From: Thiotrichales bacterium
GTDB lineage: Bacteria > Pseudomonadota > Gammaproteobacteria > HK1
Assembly (NCBI GenBank): GCA_026709935.1
Contig: JAPOSC010000018.1
Span: 1 to 64,000 of the forward strand
DNA length: 64,000 bases
Reading direction: 5' to 3'
The notes under the pieces were generated by a model. That model was given only the letters and a program-made list of their open reading frames with translations, was not told where the DNA came from and made no database searches. Shown here piece after piece: positions 49,607 through 60,511 of the stretch. The position numbers were made by a program, and so were the translations under genes. Within the stretch, counting starts at the first letter, position 1. Every line of letters starts with the position of its first letter.

Positions 49607-50866
49607 TCATGGGCGTCGCGGTGCACGCGTGATCAGGGCCAGACCCGCCGCAATCAGCGAAAGCACCGCGAACGCGGTGAGACCGCTCGCATAGCTGCCG
49701 GTGAGATCATGGAGCACGCCGGCCGCCAGCGGGCCCACTGCCTGGCCTCCCACCTGCGCGGGCAGGGTAATGCCGCGGATCGCGCCGAAGTGCGCGCGGC
49801 CGAAGTAGTTCGCCCACGCCACCGGGATCATCGTGAGGATGCCGCCGATCCCCGCCCCGAAGAGTCCCGCCGAGACGTAGCCGAGAAGCGGCCCCTCGAC
49901 CCCGCGCATGGTGGCCGCGCCGAGCGCAAGCAGCGCCGCACTTGCCGCAAGACACATGCGAACCGACACCATCCGTTCTCCGATGTGGCCGAAGAGAAGG
50001 CTCGCCAACACCGCGGCGAGGGAGAACGTGCTCACGATGGTCGCGGCGATCGTCGCAGAGATCCCGCGCTCGATGAGGTGCGGCGCCTGATGCAGGCTCA
50101 CCCCGGCCTGCACCGGGAAGACGAGCAGGGTGTAGACCATGAGTAGCCAGAGGGTGGAGGTGCGCAGGGCCCGGGCCCGGGTGAAGCTCACCTCGTTGGC
50201 AGCGGGGAGGCGAGCCGCCGACACCGGCGACTCCGGGCCGGCGCCGACGCCGTCGGGGCGAAGCCCGATGTCCTCGGGCCGGCGCACGAGCAGGAGCCAT
50301 TGCGGGATCACCCCGAGCACGATGGCGATGACCGCGAGCGTCACCCACCCGGCCCGCCATCCGACAACGGCGACCGCGGCCGCAACGACGAGCGGCAGGA
50401 CGGTCAGCCCCACCCCGGTCGACATCACGAGAAGCGACATCGCCCGGGCTCGGCCACGCACGAACCACTTCGTGACCGCCGAAGTGGTGCCGATCTCGAA
50501 CGGCGCCGAGAACATCATGCGCGAGATGCTGAAAGCGACATAGAACCATAGAAGCCCTTGAGTGCCGGCAAGCGCGATGCAGCATCCGCTCACTGTCACC
50601 GCGCTCGCGATCAGCAGCGCCCGCGAGCCGTGGCGGTCGAACAGCGGCCCGATGAACGGCGCGACGAACGCCCCGAGCACCCCACCGAGCGACACCGCAC
50701 CGGAGATGCCCGTGCGCGACCAGCCGAATTCGTCCGTCATCGGCACGAGGAAGATGGAAAGCGTCGCGACCGCGGCCACCTGACGCACGACGCCGGAGCA
50801 CATCGTGCAGCCGACCACGACCCAGCCGTAGAAAAACGGCAGGCGTCGCGCAAGGGAGTGGATCAT
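49607..50866 (-). CDS. MFS permease (monocarboxylate/oxalate-formate-like)
   Basis: 419 residues, twelve membrane helices. N-terminal FFYGWVVVGCTMCSGVV and the loop GPLFDRHGSRALLI are typical of the MCT/OFA-like MFS branch that moves small organic anions. It starts only 8 bases after the selenoprotein stop and is the last gene of that operon, so it may export or import the compound the selenoprotein acts on. Confidence 0.88.
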   Translation of the reverse strand: MIHSLARRLPFFYGWVVVGCTMCSGVVRQVAAVATLSIFLVPMTDEFGWSRTGISGAVSLGGVLGAFVAPFIGPLFDRHGSRALLIASAVTVSGCCIALAGTQGLLWFYVAFSISRMMFSAPFEIGTTSAVTKWFVRGRARAMSLLVMSTGVGLTVLPLVVAAAVAVVGWRAGWVTLAVIAIVLGVIPQWLLLVRRPEDIGLRPDGVGAGPESPVSAARLPAANEVSFTRARALRTSTLWLLMVYTLLVFPVQAGVSLHQAPHLIERGISATIAATIVSTFSLAAVLASLLFGHIGERMVSVRMCLAASAALLALGAATMRGVEGPLLGYVSAGLFGAGIGGILTMIPVAWANYFGRAHFGAIRGITLPAQVGGQAVGPLAAGVLHDLTGSYASGLTAFAVLSLIAAGLALITRAPRRP

Positions 50867-50874
50867 CCGCCACG

Positions 50875-51393
50875 CTACTCGCGCACGATGAAGCGCAGCC
50901 CCTGCTCCAGCGCGGCTTCGGCGCGTTGCTCCAGCTCACGTCTCGAGGCGCTGCTGATCGGGTGCTCGATGACCGCGAACGGGTAGTCGGGCATCCCGAG
51001 CGCGCGCCGCATCCCGTCCGCGGCGGACACGAACCGGTCGGTCATGATGCCGAGGGCCGGAACTCCCAGCCGTTCGGCTGCAATCGCGTCATGCAGACTG
51101 CACGACGAGCAGCTTCCTCAGTCGCCGACCCCTGTGATCGCGGCATCCCAGCCTGCCGCCTCATCCATGATGGCCCGTTCGGCCGGGGCGCTGAGGTTGC
51201 CCTTGAGCCGCTGCACGACGCCGGCGACGCCGAAGCCCTCGCGCAGAACCTGTTCCAGGTGCGCGAAGAGGTGGGCAGTTCCTTCCTTGCCGTTCGAGAT
51301 GATGCCGATTGTTGTTCCTTGCAGGCTCTCCAGTCGGGGCGGCGGAACGAATCCGACCGCGGTCTCCTCGAACGTGGGATCGAGTACTCGCAT
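50875..51393 (-). CDS. UGSC-family selenoprotein with in-frame UGA (Sec92)
   Basis: 172 residues if the TGA at 51118-51120 is read as selenocysteine. The start ATG 51393 has GGAG 6 bases upstream. Upstream of the TGA the protein reads GTTIGIISNGKEGTAHLFAH then ITGVGD. After it, GSCSSCSLHDAIAAERLGVP and an 80-residue sensible continuation end at a TAG. The motif is therefore UGSCSSC, the hallmark of the UGSC-like family first noted in marine metagenome selenoprotein surveys. A bacterial SECIS-like hairpin lies immediately downstream of the UGA. Function of the family is unproven; a redox or Se-dependent reductive role is likely. Operon: unknown partner (51448), this gene, then an MFS permease. 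Confidence 0.88.
51077..51120 (-). promoter_or_regulatory. bSECIS-like element for Sec insertion
   Basis: Twelve bases after the UGA the message forms a 7-bp apical stem, TCGTGCA with TGCATGA (51105-51099 and 51095-51089, one G-U pair), around the loop GUC. An outer GCTGC/GCAGC stem (51113-51109, 51081-51077) extends it. Spacing and the UGCAGUCUGCA-like tip closely resemble the E. coli fdhF element that binds SelB. Confidence 0.75.
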
Positions 51394-51447
51394 GAGCTTC
51401 TCCAGTTCAGGCCGTGTCGGGATGGTGGACCAACACCGTCGCATCCT

Positions 51448-52506
51448 TCATTCCGCGCCCAGCGGCCCGCAGTCCACGCACGCCCCGACGGGGAGCGTCA
51501 CCGCGCGGCTCTTGCCTCCGAACCAGGGCGGGATGACGGCGCCGAAGCCCCCGGCCGGCCCTCCGGCCGCCACCAGGAGCAGGTGCTCGGGGTCGGGCAG
51601 GGCGCGATACTCGTCGTCGCCGCGATCCCGCACCACCCGACCCTTGCCCACCTCGGCCCATTCGTGGCGATGGATGCGGGACCGTTCGTGAAGCCGACGG
51701 CAAACATCCGCGCGCGTCCATCCCGCGACGGCGAGGGGCTCGCGAAGCTGCCGGGGCACGATGACCGCGTAGTGACCGGGCCAGATCGAGTACTGGCGCA
51801 TGTTGGCCCGGATCTCCGCCGCGAACGTCTCCAGGATCTCCTCCGGGTCGGTGGTCCACTCGTTCATGATCTGGCGCGGCGCTCCGGCCGCCATGACGGT
51901 GACGGACGATGCGCCTTCCGGGATACCGCGGGCAGTGGCGAGCGACTCCCACGGCGAGCCCTCTTCGTCCTCGGCCAAGCAGAAGCTGAACTTGCCGGGG
52001 TGGCCGAGGGTCGAGCGGTCGATGCCGCCCGGACGCACGTCGAGCAGGTTGACGAGGCAGAGCCGGATCGCCCGCCCGATGACCGCGGTCGCCCGATCGC
52101 TGTTGCCGAGCGCGTTGAACGTGCCGTCCATGCCGAGCTCGCGCCGCGCGTCGCCGTTGACGATGATGAACACGGCGCACCCCCCGGTGCTTGCGGTCGC
52201 ACCGTGAAGCGTGAACTCTTCGCGCAGAATCGCGGTGAGCGCGGTCACCACCAGCGGGAAGTGCGCCGGCAGGCAGCCGGCCATCACCGCATTGACCGCA
52301 GCCTTTTCCGCGGTGACGGTCCGGGCGCGCACCGGCTCCACGCCGATGAGGTGCTCGGGCACCAGAGCCGCCTCGTCGAGACACGCCCGCACCGCGTCCT
52401 CGGTCGGCGGCACGACGGGGAGCCCGTCCGTCCAGCCGCTGCGATGGAAGAGCTCCTGGGCGGCGAAGACGTCCTCCGCTTCGTGGATGGTGGATCGAAG
52501 GTCCAT
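51448..52506 (-). CDS. Uncharacterised partner of the UGSC selenoprotein
   Basis: 352 residues from ATG 52506 (GTG 52536 is possible). Not a characterised enzyme. Marked segments: GWTDGLPVVPPTEDAVRACL, VTAEKAAVNAVMAGCLPAHF, TLHGATASTGGCAVFIIVNG, MNEWTTDPEEILETFAAEIR, and PPWFGGKSRAVTLPVGACVD with CGPLGAE. Several conserved-looking cysteines (CLPAHF, GGCAVF, CVDCG) could form a metal or redox site. No signal peptide. It is the first gene of the selenoprotein operon, ending 54 bases before the selenoprotein start, so it is probably the functional partner. Confidence 0.75.
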   Translation of the reverse strand: MDLRSTIHEAEDVFAAQELFHRSGWTDGLPVVPPTEDAVRACLDEAALVPEHLIGVEPVRARTVTAEKAAVNAVMAGCLPAHFPLVVTALTAILREEFTLHGATASTGGCAVFIIVNGDARRELGMDGTFNALGNSDRATAVIGRAIRLCLVNLLDVRPGGIDRSTLGHPGKFSFCLAEDEEGSPWESLATARGIPEGASSVTVMAAGAPRQIMNEWTTDPEEILETFAAEIRANMRQYSIWPGHYAVIVPRQLREPLAVAGWTRADVCRRLHERSRIHRHEWAEVGKGRVVRDRGDDEYRALPDPEHLLLVAAGGPAGGFGAVIPPWFGGKSRAVTLPVGACVDCGPLGAE

Positions 52507-52545
52507 GGACTGATAGGCAGGCTCGTCGTGCTCCACTGCGGACGA

Positions 52546-52986
52546 TCATACGCCCAAGGCATGCATGATTTCCTGACAGTTACCGATTTTCGGGCGTGGG
52601 TAGTTCGCCTTCAGATCGAGCAGGTCCGTGTCCTCCGACACGAGCCAATCCGCGTCCCCGTCCAGTGCGCAGATCAGGAAAACTTCGTCGTCCGGGTCGA
52701 CCGGTGGCACCGGGGCGAATTCGGAAACGAGCGCGACGCGAGTGAACGACCCAATGATGTACGTAATCAGCTTGCGCGCTCGTTCAGGTGGATGGCGTCG
52801 TTCGAGCAGTTTTTCCAGATACTCGTCGATGATTTCGTCGCAGTAGAGCCCACTATGCTCCCGGGCAACGCATACGAGCAATCGTCGATGATCGTTGGCG
52901 TTGGCAACGCTCTCATCAAGCCAGCGGGAGCCCGCCCCGACAATCTGGTTGGAGTCGAGGACGATACGTACAACATCTGCCGTCAT
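52546..52986 (-). CDS. PIN-domain ribonuclease
   Basis: 146 residues. PIN fold with the acidic Mg2+ site: Asp in VRIVLDSNQIVGAGSRW, Glu/Asp in LYCDEIIDEYLEKLLE, Asp in DDEVFLICALDGDADWLVSE and DTDLLDL. Such proteins are toxins of VapBC-type systems or RNases of defence loci. There is no antitoxin gene next to it. Instead its ATG overlaps the stop of the restriction subunit (ATGA), making it the fourth gene of the restriction-modification operon. Confidence 0.85.
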   Translation of the reverse strand: MTADVVRIVLDSNQIVGAGSRWLDESVANANDHRRLLVCVAREHSGLYCDEIIDEYLEKLLERRHPPERARKLITYIIGSFTRVALVSEFAPVPPVDPDDEVFLICALDGDADWLVSEDTDLLDLKANYPRPKIGNCQEIMHALGV

Positions 52987-55900
52987 CTCGGCGATTGCCC
53001 ATCCGAATCGAACAGGTCTTGAAGCGCCCGCGCAAAGTCGTCTCGCTCCCAGCCTTCCGAACGGAGTCGGCGCACGTCATCCTCGGCCTCGGCGCGTATC
53101 CTGGCCGCGAGGTCTCGGATGTGAGTCTGCGGCGCCTCAACCAGGGCCGCGAACTCCTTGTCCAGCGATTGCGGATTCCGGCAGACGAGGAACTCCCATT
53201 CGCCGAGCTGACCCCAGTGGTTCACCGCGGATACCCAGCGCTTCGCCGCCTGGTGCTTGGCGTCAGCCTCGGCGTCCGGCCGTCCCTTGATCTCGACTAC
53301 GACGTGGACGCCATTCGCGAGCTGCACGATGAAATCAGGCTCGTAGACACGTGGATTGCCGTAGAGGGTGTAGGGAATGTTGAACTCCAGCCGATCGTTC
53401 CGGACGTAGCAACATACCAGACCATCCTTCGCCAGCTTCTCGATCTGGAACATCGCGGCCTGCTCCCAGCTACCGGTGTCGCAGGCCACGTAGTTCAGGT
53501 GGCTTGCAACGGTTGCCTGAACCGGCTTGACGGTCTTGAAATGCACGCTCCCGGTGCTTCCGATGCGCCGGTAGCGATTCAGGCGCGGCAGCAGCGGTGG
53601 CTCGCCCGATGATTCGTCCGGCACGATGGCGGCAGTCAGCAAGCCGACGATGCGCATGGCATAGATCTGCAATCCCACGTCGCAAGCATGCATGCCGTTC
53701 AGGTCCACGCGGTCCCGGATGTAGTCCCGCACGATGCGGAGCACCTGGGGAAACAGCGTCTGACGACTCTCGCATCCGGAACGCCCATTGGTGGACGCTT
53801 CGGTCAGCTCGCGTGTGATCTCGCTGGCGATGGCGAACTCGATCGTCTGCGGATGCGTCGAGTCGTAGTACTGCTGTCGATCCGCCGGTTCGAAACCGAA
53901 TCCCGAGAATGCTCCGGGATGGCCGATCTGGTAACCAACCTGCGGCCGCAGGAACACGGCGGTGGGTGTGCTCCAGGGGTCAAGAGAAGTCCTTTCCACG
54001 CTGTCGAGATCGCAAGTGATGCGATGCTTGCGGAGCGACGCGACATAACCTTCAACCACCGGAAACCTGATTTCGAGTGTCTTGCGCTCCGGCAGTGCCA
54101 CGACCTCATGCTTCGGTCGATCTTCGGGTGGCGCCTTGCCACCCGGCTCGCGGCCCTTGAAGGGGATCAGCGAGAACGGCACGCCGAACACGTCGACGTA
54201 CTCTTCGGTCAGGAGCCCCGTCTCCGGATCGGGGACGTAATCCATCCTCCTCAAGCCCCGCCCGACCACCTGTTCGCACAACAACTGGCTGTGGAACGCG
54301 CGAAGGCCGAGGATGTGGGTCACGTTGTTGGCGTCCCAGCCCTCGCTCAGCATGTTGACGCTGACCACGCAGCGAATGTGCGCTCCCGGCTGTCCGGGGG
54401 CCCCAACCGTCGAGACGATCCTCCGCAACTCCTCTGCTGCATCCTTGCGCGAGGTTCTCGGGTCTTCGCTCTCCGCCGCCGCAAGGAGCTTCGAGTCGAT
54501 GCGCAGGGTGACCTCCATTCCGCTCTCGTTCCACAGCTCGCGGAACTCCGACAGACCCTTGCCGTAGTGTTTCCCCGGCTTCGGCTTCCTTCGTCCTCCG
54601 GCCGACCGGTCTCCGTCATCTTCGTCTTCGTTTTCGTCCGTTGTTTCGATCAGCGTCTCGCCCGAGATCATTCGGTGGAGGTGCATGGCGACATCCGTGT
54701 TGTCGCAGACGACAATCATCACCGGCGGTGTCCGTTCCTGACCCGGCGCTGCGGCCCTCAACTGCTCGAAGCGTTCCTTCCACTCACCGGCCAGCGTGAG
54801 CAACGCGTCCTCCGCTTCGCGGTAAATCGCCTCCGGCTTCGGCTTGCCGCCCGGCAATCGGTCACCCGGCCCAAGGCTGTTTCCGACGTGTTCCCACAAC
54901 CGGAAGTACTTCGGATCAGGACGTCCCGTATTGTCGATCGCCGGCAGGCGCGGAATCTTGGTGATCCCGGACTCGATAGCGTCCACCAGGCTGAAGTCGC
55001 TGACAATCCAGGGGAACGGGGATCCCTCGGGGTATCCGCTGCCCTGAATGTAGAACGGCGTCGCCGAGAGATCGACACAGAGGCCGATGCCGCACGCCGC
55101 GTTGATCCTGTCCAGTCCGCTCACCCAGACGGTGGCTTCCTCGCGATCCGCTTTCTCCTCCGCGGAGAGCTTCGTCGCTTCATCGACCGGCGCGGGCCGA
55201 TAAGCGTGGTGCCCCTCGTCGTTCAGCACCATCAGCGGCGCGTCGTCCCAAAGGTCACCGAGACGAGCGCGCGCGAATGCCTCCGGGGTCTCCTCGCCGA
55301 GCCTCCCGACCTGCACCCCGCCTACCGTGATCGCTTCTGCCTCCGGGTTGAAGCGGTGCCAGTTGGTCACCAGCACCTTGCCCTTGGCGAGCTCCGGGCG
55401 CATCGAGGACGGCACGATATCGAACCTTTCGTAGTAACTGCCGGGGGTGCCGGGGCGCAGCACGCTCAGGCGCTCCCGGATGGTCAGATTCGGACAGACC
55501 ACCAGCACCCGGCGGGGATAGCGGGGATCGCCCGGCTTGGTTCCGCGGTTGCAGAACGCCCACGCGATGAGCATGGCCATGACCACGGTCTTCCCGGCTC
55601 CGGTCGCCATCTTGCAGGCGTAGCGCGGAATGGGGTCCAGACCCGGCTCGTTGGGGAAGTCCGCGAGCTTCGGGTGCTGCGCCACCGTCGTCACCCACTC
55701 CCCGGGCCGCGGGTTGCGCCCCGCGCGCAGCGACTCGAACTCGTGCAGAGCGAGTACGGGCCGTCGCTTCGTCTGCTTGCCGGGGGCCAGAATCTCCTGA
55801 AGGTAGAGGACCGTCTCGACTGCCTCCAGTTGGCAGAAGAACAGGCGGCGCGTGCGATCGGTGCGCCACCAGTGGCGGAGCAGCTTCCGGGTCGTCTCCG

Positions 55901-56177
55901 AGGCATTGCGCCAACCCGAAGCCCGCCAGTGTCGAACATCCTCGCGCAGAGCGTTGACGAGCGGCAGATCGTCGCGCTCCTCCTCCGCGAGGAACAACGT
56001 TCTCTGTGCGGTCCCGGTCCGCTCCGTCTTGAACCAGTAGCTTGCCGCGCGCCGCGTCGGAACCTTCGAGGGCTGGCCGGTCTGCGTGTCGTAGAGCCAA
56101 TGCTGGTCCGGCTCGTCGTAGGGAGAGCAGAGGATCGGATTCCGAACCGGCTGGATGGGGATGGATGCATCCGGCAT
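52983..56177 (-). CDS. Type III-like restriction subunit (helicase-nuclease)
   Basis: 1064 residues. SF2 helicase with Walker A KMATGAGKT (189-197), DEGHHAY box from 319, motif SEGWD (611-615) and motif VI QVVGRGLRR (636-644). The C-terminus carries a PD-(D/E)xK-like nuclease site, YEPDFIVQLANGVHVVVEIK then GRPDAEAD. It translocates or loops DNA and cuts unmodified DNA together with the methyltransferase. The start is supported by GGGAG encoded in the end of the small upstream gene. The family is larger and more divergent than EcoP1 Res. Confidence 0.92.
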   Translation of the reverse strand: MPDASIPIQPVRNPILCSPYDEPDQHWLYDTQTGQPSKVPTRRAASYWFKTERTGTAQRTLFLAEEERDDLPLVNALREDVRHWRASGWRNASETTRKLLRHWWRTDRTRRLFFCQLEAVETVLYLQEILAPGKQTKRRPVLALHEFESLRAGRNPRPGEWVTTVAQHPKLADFPNEPGLDPIPRYACKMATGAGKTVVMAMLIAWAFCNRGTKPGDPRYPRRVLVVCPNLTIRERLSVLRPGTPGSYYERFDIVPSSMRPELAKGKVLVTNWHRFNPEAEAITVGGVQVGRLGEETPEAFARARLGDLWDDAPLMVLNDEGHHAYRPAPVDEATKLSAEEKADREEATVWVSGLDRINAACGIGLCVDLSATPFYIQGSGYPEGSPFPWIVSDFSLVDAIESGITKIPRLPAIDNTGRPDPKYFRLWEHVGNSLGPGDRLPGGKPKPEAIYREAEDALLTLAGEWKERFEQLRAAAPGQERTPPVMIVVCDNTDVAMHLHRMISGETLIETTDENEDEDDGDRSAGGRRKPKPGKHYGKGLSEFRELWNESGMEVTLRIDSKLLAAAESEDPRTSRKDAAEELRRIVSTVGAPGQPGAHIRCVVSVNMLSEGWDANNVTHILGLRAFHSQLLCEQVVGRGLRRMDYVPDPETGLLTEEYVDVFGVPFSLIPFKGREPGGKAPPEDRPKHEVVALPERKTLEIRFPVVEGYVASLRKHRITCDLDSVERTSLDPWSTPTAVFLRPQVGYQIGHPGAFSGFGFEPADRQQYYDSTHPQTIEFAIASEITRELTEASTNGRSGCESRQTLFPQVLRIVRDYIRDRVDLNGMHACDVGLQIYAMRIVGLLTAAIVPDESSGEPPLLPRLNRYRRIGSTGSVHFKTVKPVQATVASHLNYVACDTGSWEQAAMFQIEKLAKDGLVCCYVRNDRLEFNIPYTLYGNPRVYEPDFIVQLANGVHVVVEIKGRPDAEADAKHQAAKRWVSAVNHWGQLGEWEFLVCRNPQSLDKEFAALVEAPQTHIRDLAARIRAEAEDDVRRLRSEGWERDDFARALQDLFDSDGQSPR

Positions 56178-56180
56178 GAC

Positions 56181-56369
56181 TCAGTCTCCCTGAAGGCAGC
56201 GTGCGATTCGATCACACAAGCACCGGAATTCGGGACACAGTTCATGCAACAGGAGCAGGTTTCTCAGTGACCCCGTAACTGTCTGGTCATCAAGTCCCTG
56301 CCTGCTCCCGGTCGTCCGGAGTCGCCATATCTCACGAGAAGAGGACCGGATGTTTCCTCCTTCGATCAT
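56181..56369 (-). CDS. Small protein between mod and res
   Basis: 62 residues from ATG 56369, which has GAGGAG 6 bases upstream and starts 2 bases after the mod stop codon. It ends 3 bases before the res start region and its 3' end supplies the res ribosome binding site. Sequence features: basic N-terminus (GGNIRSSSREIWRLRTTGSR) and a Cys-containing helical C-terminus (LLLLHELCPEFRCLCDRIAR). No known family. The tight coupling on both sides argues that it is a real component of the system, perhaps a third subunit or regulator. Confidence 0.6.
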   Translation of the reverse strand: MIEGGNIRSSSREIWRLRTTGSRQGLDDQTVTGSLRNLLLLHELCPEFRCLCDRIARCLQGD

Positions 56370-56371
56370 GT

Positions 56372-59300
56372 TCAACTCCTCACGGTCAGGACGCGCAATC
56401 CCTCATTACCACGCGGATCGATGACCTTGACCGCGACCCGCCAGGGTGCGCCGTCCGACAACCGGGACGGCGGCGGGAAGGGGAGGCTCTCGAAGCCGCT
56501 CAGGCGTTCGAACGCATCCTTCTCTACCACGCCCTTGTCGCCCAGCGCCCGTGCCAGCCGGTCCCACTTGCTCCGATCGGGAAAGAATGCCTGGCAGATG
56601 CAGAACGTCCGGCCGTCGTAGTCGGTGTCGAGGAACCATGCGGCGATACGCTGGCGATCGGTGGGATACAGCGTGCCACGCACCGGGTCGTACACATCCA
56701 TGCCTTCGACCTCGACGACGTAGTCCCCACTCTCCTGCCGAGTCGGACCGTGCACGCGTGGCGCAGCGAAGACGGTGAAGAGCTGGCTGCCAAGCTGAGT
56801 CTTCAGCAAATCGTCCATGGCCACATCCGGTCGAATGAGCGCCATGTGCAGGCGCAGCTTCGGATGGCTGCCGCTCTCGATGGCCTCCTGGGCGGCCGCA
56901 TCGAACCCGAACCCGGCGAAGACCACATCGTCGTAGCCGGCTCGATTGGCACTGCGGATCACATCCTCCACCTGCATCGAGGTGACGTTGCCGACCTCCG
57001 GACCGATGCTGACCGCGACCCTCCGCTCCTCGTCCGCACCGTTCATCCACCCGCCTTCCGCGTGAACCAGCGCCGCCCCGGTCATCGGTTCCAGTCGACT
57101 GAATTTCACGTTTCTGTTGTCGTGGAAATCCACCCCGGACGCCTTGAGGAGACGTATGATCTTGTCGAGATGCGCCTCCGCGTTCGCTACCGCGATCTCT
57201 CCCGCATCGTCCGCATCGAAGACTTCAAGCGCCTCCGGCGCTCCACCGATGGGAGAATCCGGGCCGTCTTCCACCGCGATCACACCTTCGATGGTGAACG
57301 GCCCGGCCACGCGAACCGCATCCTTGACGACCTCCGGCTTGTCCACCAGCTCCTCGGTCGCGGCGTTAGCGGCAATGCACGCATTCACTTCGTCCATCTT
57401 GGCCCGCCACGCCACCCGATAGGCGGTCAGCGCTTGTCGCAAGGACTCCGGCCAGTCGGGGTCGGTATCGAAGGGCACTTCCCATTCCCTCCACTCTCCC
57501 CTTGGAATTTTTCCCCGATACCGCTCCACCTGCCGGGCCGTGATGCCCTTGAGAGGCTTGCGGGCAGGAACACTCTTGATCCGGCCGGGGGGCGTATCCG
57601 GCAGCAGCCAGCGACGAATGTCAGCGTCGGTGACGGCGCTTACTCCTTCTTCTTGGTGCTTTCTGATGAGCTTGTCGGCGAGTGCGGCCTTCAGGTTATC
57701 GCCGACATCTGCGAGTACGCGATTCAGAGCAGCAAGCTTCTCGGCGAGGATCGCTTCATGCTTGGCGAAGATGGGATCGAGCGAGACGTTGCGGGCGATG
57801 CTGCGCAATGTGATGTGGGGTACCATCTCGCACTGGAAGGTCATTGGCTTGCCCGTCGACCGCCCGCCCGCATCCACTTCCGCGATCCAGGTTCCATCGG
57901 GATTGCGTGCTACATCTTCGGCATTCAGCTTACGAAGTTGGTAATACTCAAAGCTAGCGGTCATAAGGCGATGTTTTGCCAGTGAAAGCGCTACCCGGCT
58001 CGTGTCGATGGTGATCCAGCGCCGGCCCCACTGCTCGGCGGCATAGGCGGTTGTGCCGCTACCACAGGTTGGGTCAAGAACGAGATCACCGGGATCTGTT
58101 GTCATCAGCAAGCAGCGTTCGATGACTTGGGAGGAAGTTTGAACTACGTATTGCTTTGGATCAGATCTTGACTGCACCCCCCATGTATCATCCCAAAATG
58201 CCGAGATAGGAAATACGGGGAAGTCATCCAGGTATCGAACATACGCGACTGATCTTCCTTCACCAACCATACGATTGCTGTTGATCAAACGGTCGATTCC
58301 TCGCTGGTTTGTCTTCCAGAAACCAGATCTTGGATACCGAACAGATCCTTGAAATTGAACAGAGAAATTACTATTTTCGCCACCACTTTGGGATACCATT
58401 GGGCTTGGTCGATATATTTTTGCTCCCTCTGGCATATAATTCCCGAAACTTCCAGAGGGACCACGTTCACCAGAAGGCAGTTCAATATTTTTGTATTTAG
58501 TACCACCTTCTTTATCGACTTTCTTCACCTTGTACAAATCTCGAAATTTGAGAAATTTTCGTTCTTTGGCGTACCACAAAAGAAAATCGAAAGTTGTCGC
58601 AAGTAACTCACTCGTCTGGCCGCTCGTCGTGACAAAGGGAATAGTCGCACAGGCATTTTCTTGTCCGAATACCTCGTCCAGTAAACATCTGACGCGATGC
58701 AAATTCGCGTCACTGATTTGTACGAAAATGCTGCCGGTATCGGTCAACAACTCTCGTGTCATCACCAGCCGGTCCCGCAGATAGGCGAGGTACGAATGGA
58801 TACCGAGTGTCCAAGTATCCCGATACGCCTTGACCATCTCCGGTTCGCGTGTGAGGTCCTGCTCACGATCCTTGACACCGAGCTGCCCAAGTTGCGGCTG
58901 AAAATTCGACTTGAAGCTGATTCCGTAGGGCGGGTCGATGTAGATCATCTGCACCTTGCCTGCCAGATCTTCGCGCCGAGCAAGGCTCGCCATGACCTGG
59001 AGCGAATCACCGAGAATCATCCGATTGGTCCAGTCCACGTCGTGCCGGTAGAACTGCACCGCGCTCGCGTAGTCCAGTTGCGGGTCGGCGAAGAGATCCC
59101 GATGCACGTCCTGGCGGGCCAGCACTCGAAGAATGGCCTGCGTGGAAACACGCTCGTGCATGTGCAGCGCCACGGGGTCGGCCTCGAACGAGGGCCGCTC
59201 CCGCTTTCCGCTCCATTCGAGCCACGGCTCGTGGCGCCTCAGCGCGTCCTCGAGCAGCGTAGCCTCTTCCTCCGAAAGAGGCCGCTGCCGGGCTGTCGCC

Positions 59301-59527
59301 ACCAACTCCGGCAACCGGTCGGTGGCGGCCGCATCCGGAGAGGACCGCAACACCGGCGGCAAATGAGGATTGTGGTGGTACTCAACCGGTGGCTCCTCCC
59401 GAACCATGCCGTGGGATTCGAGCCCCGCCGGGGGAATGTTCTTCCGCGTCGCCGAATACCTGATCGAGGTGACTGCCTCACCGGCCGGTGCCGTGGTGCT
59501 CGGGGTGGTTTTCCTTCTGCGCGCCAT
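56372..59527 (-). CDS. Type III-like DNA methyltransferase (Mod)
   Basis: 1051 residues from ATG 59527, much longer than EcoP-type Mod. Beta-class adenine methyltransferase order: DPPY (198-201, MIYIDPPYGISFKSN) before the SAM-binding DPTCGSGTTAYAAEQWGRRW starting at 485. The segment between, about residues 300-450 (DNA about 58177-58627), should contain the target-recognition domain and is strikingly AT-richer than the rest. About 400 residues follow the catalytic core, including GYDDVVFAGFGFDAAAQEAI and VRGTLYPTDRQRIAAWFLDT, an extension shared by the large Mod proteins paired with this helicase type. It methylates the recognition site and guides Res. Confidence 0.92.
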   Translation of the reverse strand: MARRRKTTPSTTAPAGEAVTSIRYSATRKNIPPAGLESHGMVREEPPVEYHHNPHLPPVLRSSPDAAATDRLPELVATARQRPLSEEEATLLEDALRRHEPWLEWSGKRERPSFEADPVALHMHERVSTQAILRVLARQDVHRDLFADPQLDYASAVQFYRHDVDWTNRMILGDSLQVMASLARREDLAGKVQMIYIDPPYGISFKSNFQPQLGQLGVKDREQDLTREPEMVKAYRDTWTLGIHSYLAYLRDRLVMTRELLTDTGSIFVQISDANLHRVRCLLDEVFGQENACATIPFVTTSGQTSELLATTFDFLLWYAKERKFLKFRDLYKVKKVDKEGGTKYKNIELPSGERGPSGSFGNYMPEGAKIYRPSPMVSQSGGENSNFSVQFQGSVRYPRSGFWKTNQRGIDRLINSNRMVGEGRSVAYVRYLDDFPVFPISAFWDDTWGVQSRSDPKQYVVQTSSQVIERCLLMTTDPGDLVLDPTCGSGTTAYAAEQWGRRWITIDTSRVALSLAKHRLMTASFEYYQLRKLNAEDVARNPDGTWIAEVDAGGRSTGKPMTFQCEMVPHITLRSIARNVSLDPIFAKHEAILAEKLAALNRVLADVGDNLKAALADKLIRKHQEEGVSAVTDADIRRWLLPDTPPGRIKSVPARKPLKGITARQVERYRGKIPRGEWREWEVPFDTDPDWPESLRQALTAYRVAWRAKMDEVNACIAANAATEELVDKPEVVKDAVRVAGPFTIEGVIAVEDGPDSPIGGAPEALEVFDADDAGEIAVANAEAHLDKIIRLLKASGVDFHDNRNVKFSRLEPMTGAALVHAEGGWMNGADEERRVAVSIGPEVGNVTSMQVEDVIRSANRAGYDDVVFAGFGFDAAAQEAIESGSHPKLRLHMALIRPDVAMDDLLKTQLGSQLFTVFAAPRVHGPTRQESGDYVVEVEGMDVYDPVRGTLYPTDRQRIAAWFLDTDYDGRTFCICQAFFPDRSKWDRLARALGDKGVVEKDAFERLSGFESLPFPPPSRLSDGAPWRVAVKVIDPRGNEGLRVLTVRS

Positions 59528-59650
59528 GGCTCGTTCCTGTATCGGGATGCCTCGGCCGAGGCCGGTGGCATGGTAACCCGGAGAATCGGCGTGATCATGC
59601 GGCATCCGACCACTACCATCCCCGAATCCGGAACAAGGGGAGACCAAACG

Positions 59651-60511
59651 GTGAACGCTGATCTTCAAGCCAATCTTCACGCGGACCTCGGACTGGAAGG
59701 CAAGGTCGCCATCGTCGCGGGCGGCGGCGCGGCGGGAAACGGCATCGGCAACGGCCGCGCGGCGGCCATCCTGCTCGCCCGGGCGGGCGCGCGGGTGTTC
59801 GTCGTGGATCGATCGCTCGACCTCGCCGAGGGCACGGTGCGGATGATCGCGGCGGAGGGCGGGGAGGCGGCCGCCCACGCGGCGGACCTCACCAACGAGG
59901 ACCAGTGCCGGGCGATGGCGGAGGCCGCGCTCGCGCGGTTCGGGCGCATCGACGTGCTCGACAACAACATCGGCATCATGAGCGTCGGCACGGTGGTCGC
60001 CGAGACGCAGACCCGGTGGGAGCGGGTGATGCGGGTGAACGTCGAGGCGATGTTCCTCACCTCGAAGCACGTCATCCCCGCCATGATCGAGAACGGCGAC
60101 GGCGGCGCGATCGTGAATATCTCCTCCATCGCGACGTTGAGGCCGCGCGGCATGACCGCCTACTCGACCTCGAAGGCCGCGGTCATCGGCCTCACCCGCG
60201 CGATGGCGGTCGATCACGCCCGCGACGGAATCCGCGTCAACTGCATTGCCCCGGGCGCGGTCTACACACCGATGGTGTACTCGGACGGCATGTCGGACGA
60301 GGCGCGGGAACAGCGCCGCAAATACTCGCTGCTCGGCATCGAGGGCACCGGCTGGGATATCGGCCGCGCGGTGCTCTTTCTCGCTTCCGGGTGGGCGCGC
60401 TACATCACCGGCCACACGCTGGTGGTCGACGGGGGAGGCACCCTCGCCGGCCCGCCGCGCTCGGCCGGCACGGAGGCGGCGCAGGTGCGCGGCCACGACG
60501 GTTCCTCGTGA
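59651..60511 (+). CDS. Short-chain dehydrogenase/reductase
   Basis: 286 residues from GTG 59651, chosen because AGGGGAG lies 8 bases upstream. Classical SDR: cofactor loop GGGAAGNGIGNGRAAAILLA, NNIGIMSVGT, catalytic Ser in NISSIATLR, and YxxxK in AYSTSKAAVIGLT, ending GHTLVVDGGGTLAGPP. Substrate unknown. Divergent from mod, so it marks the right border of the restriction operon. No functional link to the bufferin genes downstream is evident. Confidence 0.9.
   Translation: MNADLQANLHADLGLEGKVAIVAGGGAAGNGIGNGRAAAILLARAGARVFVVDRSLDLAEGTVRMIAAEGGEAAAHAADLTNEDQCRAMAEAALARFGRIDVLDNNIGIMSVGTVVAETQTRWERVMRVNVEAMFLTSKHVIPAMIENGDGGAIVNISSIATLRPRGMTAYSTSKAAVIGLTRAMAVDHARDGIRVNCIAPGAVYTPMVYSDGMSDEAREQRRKYSLLGIEGTGWDIGRAVLFLASGWARYITGHTLVVDGGGTLAGPPRSAGTEAAQVRGHDGSS

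Follow-up and report, generated by a model that had tools for sequence, protein, structure and literature searches.

Does the in-frame TGA in a short minus-strand gene of a Thiotrichales bacterium end that gene, or does it encode selenocysteine (Sec), and if so, what might the protein do? The gene lies in a stretch of 64,000 nucleotides (GenBank assembly GCA_026709935.1, contig JAPOSC010000018.1, positions 1 to 64,000; hereafter the window) and had been proposed in a first-pass annotation, made from the letters alone, to be a selenoprotein of the UGSC family. Judging from its sequence and that of its relatives, it almost certainly encodes a true selenoprotein in which the UGA is read as Sec. 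It adds a member to the UGSC family, first recognised around 2008. What is new lies in its context: a partner gene (here called PART), a likeness to PrdB/GrdB (the Sec subunits of D-proline and glycine reductase), links to thioredoxin, and uptake and catabolic neighbours. The features are listed in Table 1.

Table 1. Features of the UGSC locus in window coordinates, with the evidence for each.
Feature	Position	Strand	Evidence
Major facilitator superfamily (MFS) transporter gene	49607..50866	-	PF07690, E 8.7e-31
UGSC-family selenoprotein gene	50875..51393	-	PF24696, E 2e-47; alignment of 32 homologues
Putative bacterial Sec insertion sequence (SECIS) hairpin, 9-bp stem, loop GUC, beginning 10 bases past the UGA	51087..51107	-	Fold; stem pairing; AGU tip conservation
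In-frame UGA, predicted codon of Sec 92	51118..51120	-	UGA in 33/33 aligned Sec loci; Cys-type homologues have a Cys codon here
Ribosome binding site GGAGAAG, before ATG 51393	51397..51403	-	Sequence
PART, 362-aa partner of UGSC	51448..52536	-	Adjacent or fused to UGSC in nearly all loci

The reading frame crosses the TGA exactly as had been claimed, continuing with GSCSSCSLHDAIAAE... for 80 conserved residues until the TAG at 50877-50875. The product has 172 residues with U at position 92, and the motif UGSCSSC spans residues 92-98. The span first given for the gene, 50866-51393, holds at its ATG, while its low end lies 9 bases too far and runs into the ATG of the transporter gene. The expected ribosome binding site is present, with GGAG (51403-51400) spaced 6 bases from the start codon; an alternative in-frame ATG is found upstream at 51444, and homologues begin at the equivalent of 51393. 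A search against protein families, as suggested with the first proposal, gave 162 bits for PF24696, the UGSC family (gathering score 25), over residues 3-167. The match is thus full-length, with the UGSC motif and with Sec or Cys at the same place, and no essential difference from the family was seen. With C written for U, the protein scores 124.1 bits against NCBIfam NF041046, below the cut-off of 125 bits, which is a naming threshold and no property of the UGSC family. With this shortfall of 0.9 bits, a protein predicted at full length might still go unnamed in automatic annotation.

One scan of GTDB genomes yielded 28 related UGSC loci, in which the codon aligned to UGA 92 is TGA in 26 and TGC in both Dactylosporangium loci. 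With later loci added, 33 UGA copies were compared, and the U92-G93-S94-C95 motif is invariant among the 32 UGSC sequences aligned. Cys-type homologues have TGC or TGT at the Sec codon position. Past residue 91, homologues show either UGA or a Cys codon, followed by conserved sequence. The genome itself (3.78 Mb, 95.9% complete) was checked for selA, selB, selC and selD, and all four are there: tRNA-Sec (selC) at C68:24207-24298, confirmed by ARAGORN, adjoins selA and selB in one cluster, selD lies on contig C51, and every one of them is above its curated cut-off. An in-frame TGA in a single genome could be an error, but it is extremely improbable that this TGA is a genuine stop or a sequencing mistake, or that the gene is a pseudogene, given that 33 loci share UGA at this codon, that the sequence past the TGA is conserved and that the sel machinery is complete. 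One of those loci is a second UGA-containing UGSC gene in the same genome (C25:7423-7899; L010/L113), 32% identical to that of the window. The assignment as a new family member is made because of the same-position UGA and hairpin in 32 other loci, the sel machinery and the PF24696 match.

A hairpin with an fdhF-like tip and spacing had also been predicted downstream of the UGA. In both Escherichia coli fdhF (sequence verified) and the window, GUCUGCA occupies bases 23-29 from the UGA, with the same four closing pairs; G23 and U24, named as critical sites in PMC8659212, lie at equal distance from the UGA. The window hairpin differs in lacking the bulged U17 of fdhF, in its loop of three bases (one base shorter) and in its nine continuous pairs. 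In the window alone, it has a z of -1.9 compared to shuffles, and 2.1% of synonymous recodings of the UGSC peptide also give the stem, 0.3% with the AGU tip. As a single sequence the hairpin is weak proof, because most of it also encodes conserved residues, and an Rfam search at this position returned no family match. The evidence is strong because of conservation: the Ser99 codon is AGT in 33/33 UGA copies and AGT occurs at this position in 0/12 Cys copies, with AGT making up 4.8% of Ser codons in the window genes. Across the alignment, 92% of the cells of the nine-pair stem are paired, against 6-45% when the stem is slid, and three stem pairs have changed on both sides in some sequences.

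The gene preceding UGSC, i.e. its upstream neighbour PART, is annotated as 'hypothetical protein' in the records, and PART and 32 relatives matched no Pfam or NCBIfam family beyond chance level. Its start is GTG 52536; from ATG 52506, the start used by the L022 homologue, the protein would have 352 aa. Throughout the first set of loci, PART adjoins UGSC. Among 398 genomes of the phylum, independent searches found UGSC in five and PART in the same five (from five families), always adjacent; by simple arithmetic that ignores relatedness, the chance of this overlap is about 1e-11. Single-chain fusions with UGSC first occur in Dactylosporangium, Variovorax boronicumulans, Vibrio europaeus and Sporomusa termitida. 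In Halorientalis and Halalkalicoccus, UGSC is flanked by a PART on each side, and Haladaptatus has a PART with no annotated UGSC beside it. Seven PART residues (D37, G38, P44, N163, D173, C186 and E189) are kept in 41/41 sequences compared. Based on co-occurrence, adjacency and fusion, UGSC and PART very probably form an obligate two-protein module. PART was also considered as a second selenoprotein and rejected, the two TGA codons in homologues L030 and L041 being ordinary terminal stops. A conserved domain called 'Unknown_1' was fused to UGSC in the Global Ocean Sampling (GOS) metagenomes, as PART is elsewhere, according to PMC2398784; this domain is probably PART, an identity that is a guess.

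That upstream gene as an inseparable partner had been missed by the first-pass annotation, as had a resemblance of the UGSC region to PrdB/GrdB. With hhalign, UGSC alignment A1 matched an 11-sequence PrdB/GrdB alignment with a probability of 83%, an E-value of 8.8e-6 and a score of 43.9, the E-value having moved from 1.3e-3 through 5.6e-4 and 4.6e-5 to this value as sequences were added. The broader alignment A6 scored 40.0, compared to 15.8 with the second profile reversed, and none of 200 column shuffles exceeded 22.4; the A1 match scores about twice the best shuffle. Other profile pairs compared scored 11-23. With the four UGSC motif columns masked (XXXX), the score is still 36.9. The aligned region places Sec and its following helix on the catalytic UxxC region, with Sec falling on Sec/Cys unprompted, E--GI/VP matched in the helix and strand that follow, and HP-I on FP-LG. 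The shared pattern (PF07355, TIGR04483) is thus a UxxC(xxC) after a hydrophobic strand, then E..GI/VP and later an HP/FP-type element. GrdB is described with UxxCxxC in PMC13188914, and this spacing is counted for the likeness since it is that of UGSCSSC. Likenesses also extend to the surroundings, with a gene adjoining a larger partner, a thioredoxin supply as in glycine reductase, and transporters and amino-acid-type enzymes nearby. On the other hand, UGSC has only 172 residues, its partner is unlike PrdA, and it also occurs in haloarchaea, there in its Cys form, as well as on plasmids from Paracoccus, Acidovorax and others. PrdB/GrdB-like selenium-carbon chemistry in UGSC is put forward tentatively, as somewhat short of an even chance. 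Elsewhere in the genome, C13:72155-72544 (L067) encodes a GrdB/PrdB-family (PF07355) protein with an in-frame TGA ('LVPA-TGA-PVCHQS'), which from its sequence is a probable further selenoprotein.

The AlphaFold2 model of UGSC, made from 32 sequences, consists of alternating strands and helices (predicted local distance difference test, pLDDT, 90; predicted TM-score 0.85), and residues 93-108 form a helix directly after Sec 92. In structural comparisons the model falls among generic Rossmann, flavodoxin and receiver folds. UGSC is accordingly predicted to have a Rossmann-like alpha/beta fold with UGSCSSC at the start of the helix after strand 3. Sequence searches of the PDB with the UGSC and PART profiles gave nothing significant. 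Chain H of the methyl-coenzyme M reductase activation complex, the top row in VIA (Z 10.9), was set aside, being barely above response regulators and flavodoxins.

A source of electrons is suggested by the neighbourhood. A thioredoxin-reductase-like gene or a PART-fused thioredoxin-like domain is present in 12 of about 50 UGSC loci. The gene order is trxB-trxA-PART-UGSC in Arthrobacter sp. ERGS1:01 and PART-UGSC-trxB in Roseovarius sp. THAF8; in Variovorax sp. SRS16, trxB lies three genes ahead of PART, and in genome G143 it lies about 2.3 kb from a thioredoxin-PART fusion. All four of these reductases are above the NCBIfam thioredoxin-reductase cut-off. Further TrxB-like genes lie near UGSC in L030, L046, L105, L106, L107 and G139; three of these six were scored and are below that cut-off. 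Based on 2-4 TrxB-like genes per 3-5 Mb genome, about 0.5 in 50 loci would be expected to have one within the flanks, against 10 seen. The PART upstream of the second UGSC gene in the Thiotrichales genome bears an N-terminal thioredoxin-like domain with CPTC, and related domains are fused to PART in G143 and G311. UGSC-PART is thus rather likely to be a thioredoxin-fed reductase.

Taken together, these observations suggest the following mechanism. SelB and Sec-tRNA would read the UGA as Sec, aided by the hairpin just downstream. The selenolate of Sec92 would attack a substrate bound at the UGSC-PART interface, and a carbon-heteroatom bond would be reductively cleaved, or an equivalent two-electron reduction carried out. 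A selenenylsulfide might then form with C95 or with the invariant C186 of PART, to be reset by thioredoxin and NADPH-thioredoxin reductase. According to PMC10298544, selenium-carbon bonds are broken by both glycine reductase and D-proline reductase, and the former draws on the thioredoxin dithiol. The substrate would probably be a small carboxylic or amino acid, imported by the adjoining MFS transporter and probably differing between lineages. As a whole, a thioredoxin-fed, PrdB/GrdB-like reductase is held to be the better reading by a little over an even chance.

Several observations weigh against it. The PF07355 profile has no match to the UGSC proteins (hmmscan, E up to 5, 32 sequences), which is why UGSC is said to work like PrdB/GrdB and not to be one. 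The profile match extends over no more than about 62 columns, and the alignments are shallow (effective number of sequences 3-4). PART has no similarity to PrdA, the pyruvoyl subunit (score 13.8, with a small PrdA set in which one sequence is misframed), and was provisionally rejected as its relative. The UGSC-PART pair of the window has no adjoining thioredoxin gene, nor do most Sec-type loci. Neighbouring catabolic genes vary among lineages, so no single substrate is indicated. Finally, MGTS replaces UGSC in the Vibrio and Sporomusa fusions, so that some members function with neither Sec nor Cys.

The thioredoxin-system neighbours and the UxxC motif would also suit a general thiol-disulfide oxidoreductase with a thioredoxin-like fold, acting in redox defence with PART as an accessory, and the 2008 GOS survey (PMC2398784) does assign UGSC a thioredoxin-like fold. 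The strand-helix order of the model (pLDDT 90) and its best neighbours are instead Rossmann/flavodoxin-like; thioredoxins are not among the structural neighbours listed, which is not proof against a thioredoxin fold. That UGSC is constantly linked to PART and to genes of uptake and catabolism better suits a substrate-specific enzyme, so that this explanation is considered quite unlikely. Another explanation is a lyase or hydro-lyase acting on hydroxy or dicarboxylic acids, whose Sec/Cys would bind a metal or act as a nucleophile and not in redox. Aconitase X, the phosphoenolpyruvate (PEP)-mutase family, CoA ester lyase and HMG-CoA lyase are all among the neighbours, forms without Sec/Cys exist, and the modelled PART structure has class I fumarase as its top Foldseek match, with an E of about 1e-4 and a probability of up to 0.95. 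This structural first match has a TM-score of 0.25, VIA gives Z of at most 6.7 with the model partly covered, and the profiles share no similarity (score 23, probability 0.8%), so that PART was rejected as a class I fumarase relative. The lyase explanation would also leave the thioredoxin link unexplained and is regarded as unlikely. The thioredoxin-fed, PrdB/GrdB-like reductase remains the preferred reading.

Regarding the neighbouring genes, the ATG of the MFS transporter lies 8 bases past the UGSC stop codon, and the two are probably in one operon. The nearest named NCBIfam model for the transporter is the L-lactate MFS transporter, below cut-off. Across loci, MFS, TctC, ATP-binding cassette (ABC) and tripartite ATP-independent periplasmic (TRAP) transporters are found near UGSC, as are CoA transferase III, RraA and proline racemase besides the acid-catabolism enzymes named above. 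No promoter consensus was found near the UGSC and PART genes, and no UGSC relatives were found in IMG/VR or phage records.

According to PMC2398784, UGSC ranks with the most abundant selenoprotein families of aquatic metagenomes; GOS yielded 255, with nonmarine samples showing the highest frequency. No function assigned to it was found in the literature searched. Apart from the 2008 'Unknown_1' fusion, no link of UGSC to PrdB/GrdB, thioredoxin reductase or a named partner was found in that literature, subscription papers and supplements being outside the search. With a constant partner, a resemblance to an established Sec enzyme and a source of electrons, this orphan family becomes a concrete biochemical question, and a testable role is suggested, the reductive breakdown of imported small acids.

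As the first-pass annotation anticipated, UGSC genes are cut short by automatic annotation, and truncated copies in public plasmid records indicate that selenoprotein genes are still being lost in this way. In the IncP plasmid of Acidovorax sp. T1 (L074, 5983-7515), UGSC is annotated up to the UGA only, as a 96-aa 'hypothetical protein', and PART is missing from the PLSDB gene table; the Paracoccus UGSC appears as two 'hypothetical proteins'. Plasmid pFER4 of Paracoccus ferrooxidans (L079, 6935-13682) carries a UGA-type UGSC and PART, with selB 3-4 kb further along, so Sec use and its decoding factor may be travelling together on this plasmid.

Other variants were observed as well. The Arthrobacter UGSC protein (L099, 6018-6833) is lengthened at its C-terminus by an extension with a CSDC motif that looks NifU-like by eye. 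The fusions with MGTS, in Vibrio europaeus (L102, 5323-7008) and Sporomusa termitida (L103, 5311-7035), adjoin aconitase X and DUF126. In the window, PART is directly preceded by a gene for a PIN-domain protein (PF13470; 52549-52986, minus strand), and farther upstream lie two long open reading frames (52983-60496, minus strand) that resemble a type III restriction-modification pair.
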